Under the pieces are notes generated by a model. The model was not told where the DNA came from. It saw only the letters and a list, made by a program, of their open reading frames with translations, and did not search any database. A program made the translations under genes and the position numbers. 64,000 nucleotides of DNA from a candidate division SR1 bacterium. Its GTDB lineage: Bacteria; Patescibacteriota; Gracilibacteria; Absconditabacterales; Absconditicoccaceae. The stretch lies in contig JAPLUT010000008.1 of assembly GCA_026397475.1 (NCBI GenBank), positions 1 to 64,000 on the forward strand. The letters are read 5' to 3'. Position 1 is the stretch's first letter, and every line of letters starts with the position of its first letter. This document shows positions 2,598 through 38,563 of this stretch, one piece after another.

Positions 2598-3311
2598 ATG
2601 CAAAAAAATATTATCATATGATTATCTACCTGAGATTTCTATAGAATAACAGATGCGAGAAATAACGATGAACAGATTTCAAATTATTTCGCCATACCTG
2701 AAGCAAGAGCTTTAGAACTAATGTTCCATGATAAAGAAAATCTTGAACACCAACTCACCAGAGAGATCATAGAAAATAGTTTCTCACATTGTTCGATTCA
2801 TGTTCCGAAATATGCATATAAAAATGATGAAGAATCTCATAGAATACTAAAATTTATAGAAAAGATATGTTCAACATTGCCCATAAAAAACATCGTTGTA
2901 CATCCAGATGATGTAGTCGATCGGTCTCTCTTTGAGCAATACAAACATCTTCCGCTTTCCATAGAAAATATGGATGATAGGAAGAAATCCTGCAAATGAG
3001 TAGAAGATATCAAGAAAATTCTTAACGAAAATCCATATTTATGATTTGTTTTGGACCTGCAGCATTGCTTCGTAAACGACCCGACTATGCAGCTCGCGAG
3101 AGACTTCCACAAAGCATTCTGAGACAGGATCGTCCAATATCATATCAGCTGATATCATCCGGAATACCTCCATTATCCCTTATTCAAAACTCAACAAACC
3201 GAGATAGTCAAAGCGATGGAAAGGACGGATATCCCCATCATAATCGAAAGCACATTTGATGATAAGGATGATTTACAAAAGGAAATAGCTTATATAAAAA
3301 GTTTGATTTAA
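2598..3311 (+). CDS. TIM-barrel protein, sugar isomerase/AP endonuclease-like
   Basis: A 237-aa protein with the pattern of the xylose isomerase-like TIM barrel (AP_endonuc_2) superfamily. Successive beta strands carry candidate metal-binding residues: SIHVPKYAY, NIVVHPDD, LSIENMD, FVLDLQHCF, YHISGYHPEY and PIIIESTFDD. The HPDD, IEN, DLQH and IES segments fit the metal ligands of this fold. TGA is used as Gly at least six times. The substrate is unknown. It sits inside the plus-strand run 276-5165. Confidence 0.65.
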
Positions 3312-26669: not shown

Positions 26670-26776
26670 GCCTACGGCAGGTAAACTTTTCTTCATATAT
26701 ACAATAATTAAATAATATAAATAATATCCTTAGAGGATACTAAGGATGTCGCTGGTACTTTCAACATTTATTGGTT

Positions 26777-27364
26777 TTAGGTTCATTGTTGTGGGTTTCC
26801 TTTAATCTCTGTTAATGTACCACTTTCATAGTTTATAAGGAATATATTTGTTTCTCTAATAAGTTTCGCAGGAATATCTTGATCTACATGGACGTTATCT
26901 CCCACTCCATATACATCAATACCATAGCGTTTGAAGAGAGATGCGGGGATTTGAAAGATTATGGAAAGATTTTCTCCACCCTCTCCTGCATGTCAGATAA
27001 CAGCTTTGTTATAATACTCCGTTGACGTAAAATATGTTTTCTCATCTTCTGTTTTATTTATTTTTAATCCCTCCTTAAAAATTATCTTTTTTAACGTTTC
27101 CAAGCTTATTGCGATTCCTCTATAGAAATAAAAATCCCCCTTCTCAAGCGATTCTGGCAACCTACTTGCCAATCGATTTTTGTCGACTCGATGCCTATGT
27201 TCATAGTCGTCTCTATGCTCTTCGATATCTTTGAATGCAGTCTCTCGTGCTTCTCTATATAAGGTACTTTTTTTAATAAATATCAAAATACATTCATTGA
27301 TTTTAGCCGACGAAATTTTTGATTTTGAAGGGGAGATATACTTATTTTCTCATACAGGTTCCAT
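26777..27364 (-). CDS. Unknown protein, weak ADP-ribosyltransferase-like pattern
   Basis: A 195-aa protein starting MEPVGENKYISPSKSK. No family recognised with confidence. An Arg-bearing strand (DFYFYRGIAIS), a Ser-Thr-Ser-like strand (TYFTSTEYYNKAVIG) about 45 residues later and a late Glu (KLIRETNIFL) are spaced as in R-S-E ADP-ribosyltransferase folds, but this is only a pattern. There is no signal peptide. TGA encodes Gly at least three times. Stop is TAA. It is divergent from the DGR target gene. Confidence 0.55.
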
Positions 27365-27434
27365 ATTCTCGTTAGAAATAAAAACATATATAAATTATAT
27401 CCAGAATTGTTGATTTTGCAAATTTCAAAATGAC

Positions 27435-27462
27435 TTGACAAATCATATAAAATATGTATAAT
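27435..27462 (+). promoter_or_regulatory. Promoter of the DGR target gene
   Basis: TTGACA and TATAAT are both consensus, with a 16-base spacer. The ATG of the target gene follows 33 bases after the -10 element. This is among the best promoter matches in the window. Confidence 0.8.
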
Positions 27463-27495
27463 GGAAAGGTAATTTTACTTTATCGCTCTACAATA

Positions 27496-28521
27496 ATGAC
27501 AAAAGCACAACAAACCGCTGACCAATACAATACTATAAGATTAGAACTAGTAAAAAAAGGTTCTGTCTTCGGAGAAGAGGCAAAAAACAAGAAGAAATTA
27601 GTTCTTGAGGCTTTGTCATGAGTTGAAGAAGCGGGTAAGTCAAAAGAGACCTCACACAAAGCAAAGGTAACGCTTACAAAGAAATTTAGAGAAGAAAATA
27701 AAAATCTTATAGCTGAGCACAAAAAGCTCGGGACAGAACATAGAAAAAACGAAGCAGTTTTTCAAGAACTTTTTGCAAAAGCAAAAGAATGAGGATTTAC
27801 TGATTTGGATGAAGAAACATTTAAAAATGCTATTTCATGAGACAGAGAATCGCTTTCGTGATTAGAAAATAGACTTCTCAAAAAAGAAAATATGGATGCT
27901 ATAGATAAAGCCAATATGAAAAAAACCTTGGATGACCTCAAAAGAAACGATATGCTCACGCTAGAAAACCTTCAGAAACTAGATAATAATCTTTCTTATA
28001 CTCCGACAGAAAGAATTATCAATGGAGTATATTTTTCTAGAACAAAATTTGTTCCTGATACTAAGTTCAATGATAAACCAAACAGTTATGGTGTGTTTGA
28101 GTGTGAATCAAGAGGCATATTAAAAGGTAAAGAAAAAGGAATATATAAGGCTATGTATAATGGTAATCCAGAGTACTATCTTAGCACAGATAAATATATA
28201 GAGCAAGCAGAGAAGCAATGAAAAAAAGCAATAAAGGACAGCGATATCAGGAAGGCGTTGCAATGAATGCCAGGAGATTTTTCAGACAATACACGATATA
28301 TTTGATGAAATATATTAGGTAATATTTTGGGTTTGTCAATGTCTGGCTGTGTAGATTCAGACGGTCAGCTCTATTACGGAGATGGATATGGATCTCTGAG
28401 TTCTGCTTCCCCAGTCCATAGCTACAATACGCGAGCGTTCACATTCAATGAGGATAAAGGTAAACTCTACAATAGCTACAGTAGATACGACGCTCGTCCG
28501 TGTCTGTTCCTGACAAAGTAA
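27496..28521 (+). CDS. DGR target protein with C-terminal variable domain
   Basis: A 341-aa protein diversified by the retroelement that follows. Residues 1 to about 170 are charged and helical, probably coiled coil. The C-terminal domain is likely of the C-type lectin/FGE-like fold used by DGR targets: GVYFSRTKFVPD, then the variable repeat at residues 284-341 (SSASPV, TRAF.FN, then DARPCLFLTK at the end). Sixteen codons of the repeat differ from the template. No signal peptide or membrane segment is seen, so display would need another route, or the target acts inside the cell. Stop is TAA directly after the repeat. Confidence 0.9.
28345..28518 (+). repeat. DGR variable repeat (VR)
   Basis: A 174-bp segment forming the 3' end of the target gene. 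It aligns without gaps to the template at 28877-29050. I count 19 differences, every one at a position where the template has A (A to G, C or T). The last 27 bases are identical, as expected of the initiation-of-homing region. Resulting changes include Asn to Tyr, His, Ser or Asp. Confidence 0.97.
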
Positions 28522-28876
28522 CTCCTGTCCCGCGAAGCGGGCTTGTCCGCCATTTTGGCGGAATTCGACTACCGAGCCGTAAGGCGAGGTCCTGCTTTTT
28601 AGCAGGGTTTGACTATTTCTTCAAAAAAATATCGATGAACAAAATGCAAAGCATTTTGTTCATTTTTTCTTATAGGTGTTTTGCCAGAGTCTGGTATCTT
28701 AACTCGACCACCAAAAAAGTATTCATTTTTTTGGATGTGAGAGGTACATTGCAGAGCAATGTACGGGATAACAGAGCGTGCATACAGGAGTTCAGTTGTA
28801 CTCCCGCAGTATTGCGGGAAGTCAAAGATTATATTATCGGTTACGATAGTATGACAAAGTGAGCTACAACATAATA
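28522..28876 (+). other. Hairpin-rich spacer between VR and TR
   Basis: No gene is apparent. Hairpins in order: CCCGC/GCGGG at 28529-28541, only ten bases after VR; TCCGCC/GGCGGA at 28546-28562; CCTGC/GCAGG at 28591-28606; a perfect 13-bp stem at 28635-28663 followed by T6, which looks like a terminator for the target gene; GTACATTGC/GCAATGTAC at 28744-28764; and TCCCGCA/TGCGGGA at 28802-28819. The first is placed like the VR-adjacent DNA hairpin needed for retrohoming in phage BPP-1. Confidence 0.75.
28635..28670 (+). terminator. Terminator of the DGR target gene
   Basis: ATGAACAAAATGC, loop AAA, GCATTTTGTTCAT, then TTTTT. It is a perfect 13-bp stem with a U-tract 114 bases after the target stop codon. 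It would separate target transcription from the template RNA. Confidence 0.75.
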
Positions 28877-29050
28877 GGCTATGTAGATTCAGACGGTAAA
28901 CTCTATAACAAAGATGAATATGGATATCTGAGTTCTGCTTCCCCAGTCAATAACAACAATACGCGAGCGTTCAAATTCAATAAGGATAAAGGTAAACTCA
29001 ACAATAAATACAATAGAAACAACGCTCGTCCGTGTCTGTTCCTGACAAAG
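28877..29050 (+). ncRNA. DGR template repeat (TR)
   Basis: A 174-bp non-coding copy of the VR, rich in AAC, AAT and AAA codons when read in the VR frame (KLYNKDEYGYL, VNNNNTRAFK, NNKYNRNNARP). It is transcribed and copied by the reverse transcriptase with adenine-specific errors. A GC-rich hairpin begins nine bases downstream and the RT gene 45 bases downstream. No long functional ORF covers it. Confidence 0.95.
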
Positions 29051-29058
29051 CACTCCTT

Positions 29059-29083
29059 CCCCCGCTTAGGCGGGGGTTTATTT
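29059..29083 (+). terminator. Hairpin with U-tract between TR and RT
   Basis: CCCCCGC, loop TTAG-like, GCGGGGG, then TTTATTTTTA. It looks like a rho-independent terminator or a 3' boundary of the template RNA. If it terminates, RT would be made only by read-through or from another promoter. Confidence 0.7.
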
Positions 29084-29095
29084 TTATACACTATT

Positions 29096-30427
29096 ATGTT
29101 AGACACAGATAAACTTTTAACTGACCTCTTCCAAGCATACTACGACACTCGTCAGCATAAAAGAAACACAAAAAGCGCTGTAGATTTTGAGATGAATTAC
29201 GAATCAAAGATAATTGACTTACGAAATGATTTGGTAAATTGAACCTACGTTATCAGTCCAAGTATTTGTTTCATTATCCAAGATCCCGTGCAAAGAGAAG
29301 TCTTTGCTGCTGATTTTCGTGACAGAATAGTTCATCACTTAATCTATAATTATATCTACGAGATATTCGATCGTCATTTCATTTACGATAGTTATAGTTG
29401 CAGATTAGAAAAATGAACGCATTTTGGAATCAAAAGAGTAGATCATTTCATTCGTTCATGTACGCAAAACTATACTCGTGATGCCTATATTCTCAAGCTC
29501 GACATCAAGTGATTTTTTATGCACATCGACAAACATATCTTGTTTGAAAAAATTAAATTTTTTTTGTCCTCCTTTTCCAAAGGAGGAGTACCACGAAGTG
29601 GGGGAGGATTTAAAAACAAACTTACTATTGATTGCGATTTCCTCATCAATCTTATTCATCAAGTTATTTTTCACGACTCAACCAAGAACTGCATCATAAA
29701 ATGAAAAAAGACTGATCGAGATTGATTGCCTGATGATAAAAGTTTGTTTCACTCTTCAAAAGATACGGGGCTTGCTATCGGCAACTTAACAAGTCAGTTA
29801 TTCGCGAATGTTTACTTGGATAGTTTGGACAAATACATCAAGTATGAACTTGGATTTTCGTACTATGGTAGATACGTAGATGATTTTATATTCATCGATA
29901 CCGATAAACAAAAATTACTTTCTGTTATCACAAAAATCAAAGATTTTCTCAGTGATAAGCTGCATCTTACGCTTCACCCCAAGAAGATATACTTCCAACA
30001 GTATTCGAAGTGAGTGCAATTTCTATGAGCATATATCAAACCCCACCGCACATATATTCGCAAAAGAACGATAGGAAATTTTTATAAAAGAATCCAGATA
30101 GTAAATAAATCCCTCTGCCTTCGGCATCTCCCTTCACAAAGGGAGAAAAATTTGTCCTCCTTTTGTAAAGGAGGGGAACCACGAAGTGGTGGAGGATTTG
30201 ATAAAGAACTAATTCAATCAGTGATAAATTCTTATCTATGAATTCTCAATCATTACAAAACCTTTAAAATTAGAAAAAAGGTGATTGGTAATTTTTTCAA
30301 TAAGTTTTGAAATAATTTCCACTTCACAAAAGCTTATACAAAAGCAATTCCCAATATCAGAAAGCTAAAAGAATCAGAAGTAAGAAAACTTTATTCTCAA
30401 TGATATTATAGTCGGCTACACAAATAA
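29096..30427 (+). CDS. DGR reverse transcriptase
   Basis: A 443-aa reverse transcriptase of the diversity-generating retroelement type. Motifs in order: RIVHHLIYNYI and FIYDSYSCRLEKGTHFG near the N-terminus, catalytic Asp136 in LKLDIKGFF, the DGR-type motif LAIGNLTSQ at 226-234 (SQ in place of the usual retroviral spacing), YVDD at 260-263, and LTLHPKKIYFQ with FLGAYI in the thumb-side region. Many TGA glycines join the frame. Two in-frame inserts derived from a palindromic repeat lie at residues 157-172 and about 338-368. It is followed by avd. Stop is TAA. Confidence 0.95.
29564..29611. repeat. Palindromic repeat inside the RT gene, copy 1
   Basis: 48 bases with stem CCTCCTTT/AAAGGAGG and a second small stem CCACGAAGTGG, ending GGAGGATTT. 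It is read in frame as LSSFSKGGVPRSGGGF (residues 157-172), between the catalytic Asp and the SQ motif. It is one of four related units; see 7676-7800 and 30108-30199. Confidence 0.85.
30108..30199. repeat. Palindromic repeat inside the RT gene, opposed pair
   Basis: The first part (30108-30147) is the element in reverse orientation: AAATCCCTC, stem GCCTTCGGC, CTCCCTT/AAGGGAG. The second (30152-30199) is forward and nearly identical to the copy at 29564: it encodes LSSFCKGGEPRSGGGF (residues 353-368). The whole pair is read in frame within the C-terminal half of the RT, in the same head-to-head layout seen between genes at 7676-7800. Confidence 0.85.
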
Positions 30428-30511
30428 ATCCGAAATATAATGAGGAATTATTGATGTAGCGACTACATAGTTTTCAATAAAAAAGTTATTTATCTTTTAA
30501 AAAACTATGCA

Positions 30512-30856
30512 ATGGCAACCTACGATAATCTGCCTGTTTACAAAGTTGCTTATGATTTGCTTCAGAAGTTGTTTTTAGTGGTGAGTGATTTTAAAAGAGA
30601 TTACAAATATACGCTCTGAGAAACAATAAAAAAAGAGGTTATCGACTTGATTATCTCTATTTACCCTGCAAATTCTCACAAAGAGAAAAAAGTATATCTC
30701 GAACAAGCGAGAGGTCATATTGAAGTTGTAAGGTTGTTGATGAGATTGTGTAAGGATCTCAGAGAAATTGACTTGAAAGAGTTTGTTCTTATCAATCAAA
30801 TGATTGAATCTATAAGTAAACAACTGACAGCTTGGGAAAGGGTAATGGTAAAATAG
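30512..30856 (+). CDS. avd: Avd-like DGR accessory protein
   Basis: A 114-aa, basic, all-helical protein in the position of accessory variability determinant. The pattern DNLPVYKVAYDLLQKLF, FKRDYKYTLGETIKKEVIDL, LEQARGHIEVVRLLMRLCKD and a final amphipathic helix fits the four-helix-bundle S23/Avd family. Avd binds the reverse transcriptase and template RNA and is needed for cDNA synthesis in studied DGRs. The start MATYDN was preferred to an ATG seven bases upstream in another frame. TGA encodes the Gly of TLGET. Confidence 0.9.
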
Positions 30857-30870
30857 AAACTCGTACCAAC

Positions 30871-38489: not shown

Positions 38490-38563
38490 AGCGGATAACG
38501 GGACTCGAACCCGTACGAACAGAGCTGAAGTCTGCTATGCTACACCAATTACATCATATCCGC
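38490..38563 (-). tRNA. tRNA-Gly (UCA anticodon), reads UGA as glycine
   Basis: A 74-nt tRNA whose anticodon loop CTTCAGC, in the stem GCAGA/TCTGT, gives anticodon TCA and so reads UGA. Acceptor is GCGGATA/TATCCGC and the T arm ACGGG-TTCGAGT-CCCGT. The first pairs G1-C72, C2-G71, G3-C70 and the U73 discriminator match bacterial tRNA-Gly identity elements. The fold lacks the long variable arm of tRNA-Sec. This is the decoding partner of the in-frame TGA codons seen across the window. No CCA is encoded. Confidence 0.93.

Follow-up and report, generated by a model that had tools for sequence, protein, structure and literature searches.

The 64,000-nucleotide stretch of a candidate division SR1 bacterium analysed here (the window) carries, almost certainly, a chromosomal diversity-generating retroelement (DGR) of a bacterium in which TGA encodes glycine, and the element is apparently complete and working. 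Within the family to which this bacterium belongs such elements appear, from genome comparison, to turn over: cassettes move or vanish, and target genes persist and exchange their variable domains.

Organisation of the locus

A target gene ending in a variable repeat (VR), a template repeat (TR), a DGR-type reverse transcriptase (RT) and Avd follow one another from 27496 to 30856, all on the + strand, as the first-pass annotation had described (Table 1). An ungapped comparison of VR and TR, at an offset of 532, also gave the 19 mismatches counted there between repeats of 174 nt each, every one at a TR adenine (10 A>G, five A>C and four A>T) and together altering 16 codons. Of the remaining positions, 47 TR adenines are unchanged in VR, as are all 108 non-adenines. 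The identical 3' tail of the two repeats, previously put at 27 bases, is in fact 29 bases long. Since there is no non-adenine drift between VR and TR, it is reasonable to suppose that the element has been active recently. A point against the reading as a working DGR is that adenine mutagenesis could make TAA or TAG from eight of the TR codons, more than in the TRs of relatives. No second VR matching this TR was found in the genome, which is 99.6% complete.

Table 1. Features of the retroelement in the window and of related target genes in other genomes
Feature	Position	Strand	Remarks
Stretch between adk and rpsI	approx 26697..30866	.	absent from six readable congeners (congener comparison)
DGR target gene	27496..28521	+	341 aa, code 25; helical/coiled-coil N-terminus and C-terminal lectin-like domain in the model
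VR	28345..28518	+	174 nt; finishes on the target's last codon; 19/174 mismatches to TR, all at TR adenines
Identical VR 3' end, candidate IMH	28490..28518	+	29 nt; VR/TR identity, role inferred from BPP-1
Two small GC-rich hairpins 3' of VR, candidate homing hairpin/cruciform	28529..28562	+	CCCGC-GAA-GCGGG and TCCGCCA-TTT-TGGCGGA; 7-bp stem, p=0.009 vs random 70-nt stretches
TR	28877..29050	+	174 nt; 66 adenines
Terminator-like hairpin 3' of TR	29059..29085	+	CCCCCGC-TTAG-GCGGGGG, then TTTATTTTT; p=0.007
DGR reverse transcriptase	29096..30427	+	443 aa, code 25; LAIGNLTSQ, YVDD; sequence, fold, tree
Palindromic repeat copy 1, in frame in RT	29563..29611	+	encodes LSSFSKGGVPRSGGGF; region modelled as disordered
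RT in-frame insertion 2	30104..30199	+	repeat-like stretch plus palindromic repeat copy 2 (LSSFCKGGEPRSGGGF); modelled as disordered
Avd, 3' of RT	30509..30856	+	115 aa; ORF open from 30440; three profile libraries
DGR targets directly after pilC, three congeners	L171:4604-5374, L176:4086-4853, L051:5336-6112		
G018 DGR target	L057:5647-8649		1000-aa AAA+ (MoxR-like), beside a vWA protein

The RT, an open frame under code 25 with the motifs that had been reported for it, carries the invariant residues SQ and YxDD. Its top PDB match by sequence is the BPP-1 DGR RT (E 2e-34, the next match being at 4e-6), and the same enzyme is the best match by fold to its model (pLDDT 85), for which the top five rows are all DGR RTs. 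The identity of Avd likewise held up, with matches to Pfam bAvd (E 2.7e-13, over its cut-off), to the PHROG Avd family (3e-20) and to NCBIfam DivGenRetAVD (5e-15, under that model's own cut-off). Among nine genomes of the genus, Avd and RT co-occur solely in G000 and G004. Avd lies 3' of RT in most loci of the family, and 5' of it in most relatives from Bacteroidota and Pseudomonadota, in the family loci L055 and L059 and in the class locus L063. The adenine-only differences, the position of VR at the 3' end of an ORF, the DGR RT and Avd all support the reading of the locus as a DGR.

The target gave no match in Pfam, NCBIfam or a PDB sequence search. In its model N-terminal helices are followed by a C-terminal domain (residues 167-341; pLDDT mostly 75-95 in the C-terminal part), whose best structural matches by VIA-align are almost all C-type-lectin domains, with Z up to 6.7; the best Foldseek E-value is 0.84. 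This is suggestive, though not decisive, of a C-type-lectin-like variable domain at the C-terminus. No signal peptide is visible in the target, and the protein is probably cytoplasmic.

A hairpin after VR is required for homing in BPP-1, where the published loop is a GRNA tetraloop (PMC3240598). The hairpins after VR in the window, with stems of 5-7 bp, have loops of 3 nt, in contrast to phage DGRs, whose GRNA loops measure 4 nt. Similar GC hairpins lie 3' of VR in several relatives, not in all.

That the genome is recoded, as had been claimed, is confirmed by in-frame TGA codons (the target has eight, the RT 10), of which several occupy Gly positions of code-11 relatives, together with a tRNA with a UCA anticodon at 38490-38563. 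From these sequence features we conclude that TGA is read as Gly in this genome, in the manner of Gracilibacteria/Absconditabacteria. Across the window, L051, L054, L056 and L057, TGA accounts for about a quarter of upstream Gly codons (26/106), for 0/19 in TRs (p=0.012) and for 0/31 in VRs (p=0.001), a post hoc observation on a small sample and on a codon that has a mutable A. The idea that recoding reshapes the template was set aside, the counts being small and post hoc and TGA itself containing a mutable A.

Distribution and insertion site

Of the family's 49 genomes, 10 have an RT of this kind, a count that includes the genome of the window, and adenine-restricted VR-TR-RT arrays were found again in relatives. 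When the RT was clustered with DGR RT lineages, a check that the first-pass annotation had proposed, the family's RTs joined the cellular DGR RTs of Bacteroidota, Pseudomonadota and a few others with a support of 100/99, and they grouped together with a support (85/71) that falls short of firm. In the tree they are also separate from the RTs that represent two further families of the same class, a point of difference from the CPR DGRs of the global survey. The nearest RTs outside the family belong to cellular DGRs and are about 45-51% identical. A single-sequence query retrieved no viral relatives of the RT, the nearest viral RTs found with the RT alignment as query are at most 45% identical, and the VR tail had no match in viral contigs.

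In the window, the DGR and one divergent ORF lie between adk and rpsI. The same two genes are only 0.1-1.7 kb apart, with homologous edges and no cassette, in G001, G003, G005, G006, G007 and G008, the six same-genus genomes that the comparison covered (G002 and G004 being unreadable across the site). Insertion of a cassette between adk and rpsI would be a simpler explanation than six losses. The additional ORF (26777-27364, - strand, 195 aa), divergent from the target and within the stretch missing from congeners, resembles RNA 2'-phosphotransferase weakly and below threshold (E 0.037).

Elsewhere in the family, the DGR of G026 (L053) and a target without an element in G033 (L170) have neighbouring genes in common, adk among them, and therefore probably mark one ancestral site. 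The RT on contig C3 of G026 is not counted as a pseudogene, because what looks like a break in it is a string of Ns in the assembled sequence. On contig C9 of the same genome (L052, about 2950-3170 of the reverse complement) the target continues into the RT, the ending resembles a TR and a separate one is lacking; the arrangement reflects either a VR/TR pair that collapsed or an artefact of assembly.

Target genes at pilC and without a reverse transcriptase

Three congeners have a target gene in the type IV pilus cluster, starting 3' of pilC on the same strand, at a distance of 186 nt in G004, 82 nt in G001 and 4 nt in G005 (pilC was assigned by Pfam T2SSF, 1e-44). This slot holds a full DGR in G004 and orphan targets in G001 and G005, in both of which pilin-like genes come next. 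The two orphans have common N-termini (none of 5000 shuffles was as good) and end in differing types of variable domain, which points to variable domains having been exchanged at a single site, directly after pilC. No target was found directly after pilC in G000, G002, G003, G006, G007 and G008, the contig of G002 stopping soon after.

The C-terminal family of the target occurs in 12 of 49 genomes; the genome that holds the window contributes four genes, all of them unlinked. Some members bear an adenine signature in genomes where no RT was found. In G001, which gave no match to RT or Avd, 22/51 A and 14/79 non-A positions of the window TR are changed in the gene (p=0.0024), an excess seen solely in the stretch equivalent to VR (odds ratio 1.86, compared with 0.56 upstream, p=0.004). 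A gene of G033, a genome in one contig and 97% complete in which no RT was found, differs from the G041 TR at 19/68 A vs 8/116 non-A positions (p=1.7e-4). A second gene of G018, on another contig (L172:4570-5508), differs from that genome's own TR at 15/43 A vs 16/133 non-A (p=0.002) and is a probable remote target of the same TR. Nine such comparisons were made; the G033 result survives correction for nine, and those for G001 and G018 then stand near 0.02. In G001 and G033 the target genes seem to have persisted after the element itself was lost. A non-DGR homologue in G041 had no adenine signature against the window TR (14/54 vs 19/72, p=1), and for this reason not every target homologue can be taken as a former target.

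Possible roles of the target

An intracellular role in sensing, for instance, phage has been put forward for the DGRs that multicellular bacteria carry (PMC10907252), and such a role for the targets described here is a real possibility, if somewhat short of probable. The target of the window, although consistent with it in having no signal peptide, has no effector or ATPase domain either; no defence genes were seen among its neighbours, and PADLOC found nothing in the window. The G018 target, in contrast, is an AAA+ protein encoded beside a vWA protein, and AAA+ (MoxR-like) plus vWA is a known conflict-system pair (PMC7159879); the G018 pair resembles the conflict systems of PMC7159879 and PMC10907252. 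One may also consider that the targets bind host or prey cells at the surface or in connection with the pilus, which we regard as rather doubtful. The 4-186 nt that separate pilC from the targets of three congeners speak for it, yet the targets have no visible signal peptide or membrane segment, and the other loci of the family, that of the window included, are away from pilus genes. Because the proteins lack an export signal, adjacency to pilC is no proof of a function in the pilus, and because the G018 pair resembles conflict systems, a role as sensor is as plausible as one at the surface.

Is the element still active?

The first-pass annotation also called the locus intact. This holds for the reading frame and the catalytic residues of the RT, but the enzyme contains two in-frame repeat copies, the second (30151-30199) within a longer insertion. 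It might be that VR was diversified at an earlier time and that the RT is now impaired by these repeats. Both insertions are missing from the RTs of all aligned relatives, and the palindromic repeat is dispersed over the genome in about 30 matches, mostly outside genes and long ORFs. However, they correspond to residues 166-173 and 348-366, which the model places, with pLDDT <50, as disordered loops between well-modelled elements, and because both fall at such low-confidence positions the enzyme may tolerate them. Together with the retained frame and catalytic residues, and with the absence of drift at non-adenine positions, this makes an inactive element unlikely. That VR and TR are merely a duplicated coding segment diverged under selection is hardly credible: duplicated segments do occur, but 19 of 19 differences would fall on adenines by chance with a probability of 1.6e-9 (66 A among 174 TR positions), and the repeats adjoin a DGR RT and Avd.

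In a working DGR, a complex of RT and Avd would copy TR RNA with errors at adenines, and the mutated cDNA would replace VR, leaving TR unaltered; because VR would be replaced in this way, the lectin-like end of the target would differ from cell to cell. The locus is presumably transcribed, with homing taking place, the hairpins after VR playing a part and the target binding a ligand. Taken over the family, a possible though rather speculative picture is that DGRs act as transient engines, in which a cassette installs itself beside a target, diversifies it and disappears. The lectin-like genes left behind, once diversified and now fixed, would swap variable domains at set sites such as the position 3' of pilC, and genomes would build up a collection of frozen binders.

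Relation to known systems

The BPP-1 DGR (mtd, avd, TR, brt) resembles that of the window in having a VR that closes the target gene, differences directed to adenines, a DGR RT, Avd and a GC-rich hairpin 3' of VR; the lectin fold of its target has a possible counterpart in the predicted lectin-like domain of the window target. In contrast, the window element is chromosomal rather than phage-borne, its target is different, its RT is about 28% identical to that of BPP-1, and its Avd comes after the RT, whereas in BPP-1 Avd lies between target and TR. The cellular DGRs of Bacteroidota and Pseudomonadota, with which the family's RTs are joined, have the same VR-TR-RT layout, but unlike the window they mostly carry Avd between VR and TR, often have secreted targets and use the standard code. 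CPR DGRs with targets lacking membrane domains are already documented (PMC8144416), and CLec-AAA targets of CPR bacteria are known, as cited in PMC10907252; the CPR host, a window target without recognisable membrane domain and the AAA fusion of G018 are all in line with these. One of the few open papers that mention both DGRs and Gracilibacteria contains no description of such a locus, and two papers on Gracilibacteria genomes make no mention of DGRs. The element of the window is a further, ordinary member of the known DGR class.

What deserves to be followed is how elements turn over while their targets persist and swap modules. Many CPR DGR targets have no recognised function. Complete elements, an empty site, apparent orphan targets and a slot linked to type IV pili are all available within a single genus, where comparison can thereby test how elements are gained and lost and what the targets do. 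The orphans also carry a warning, namely that a lectin-like gene in a genome without a DGR may still bear the signature of one.
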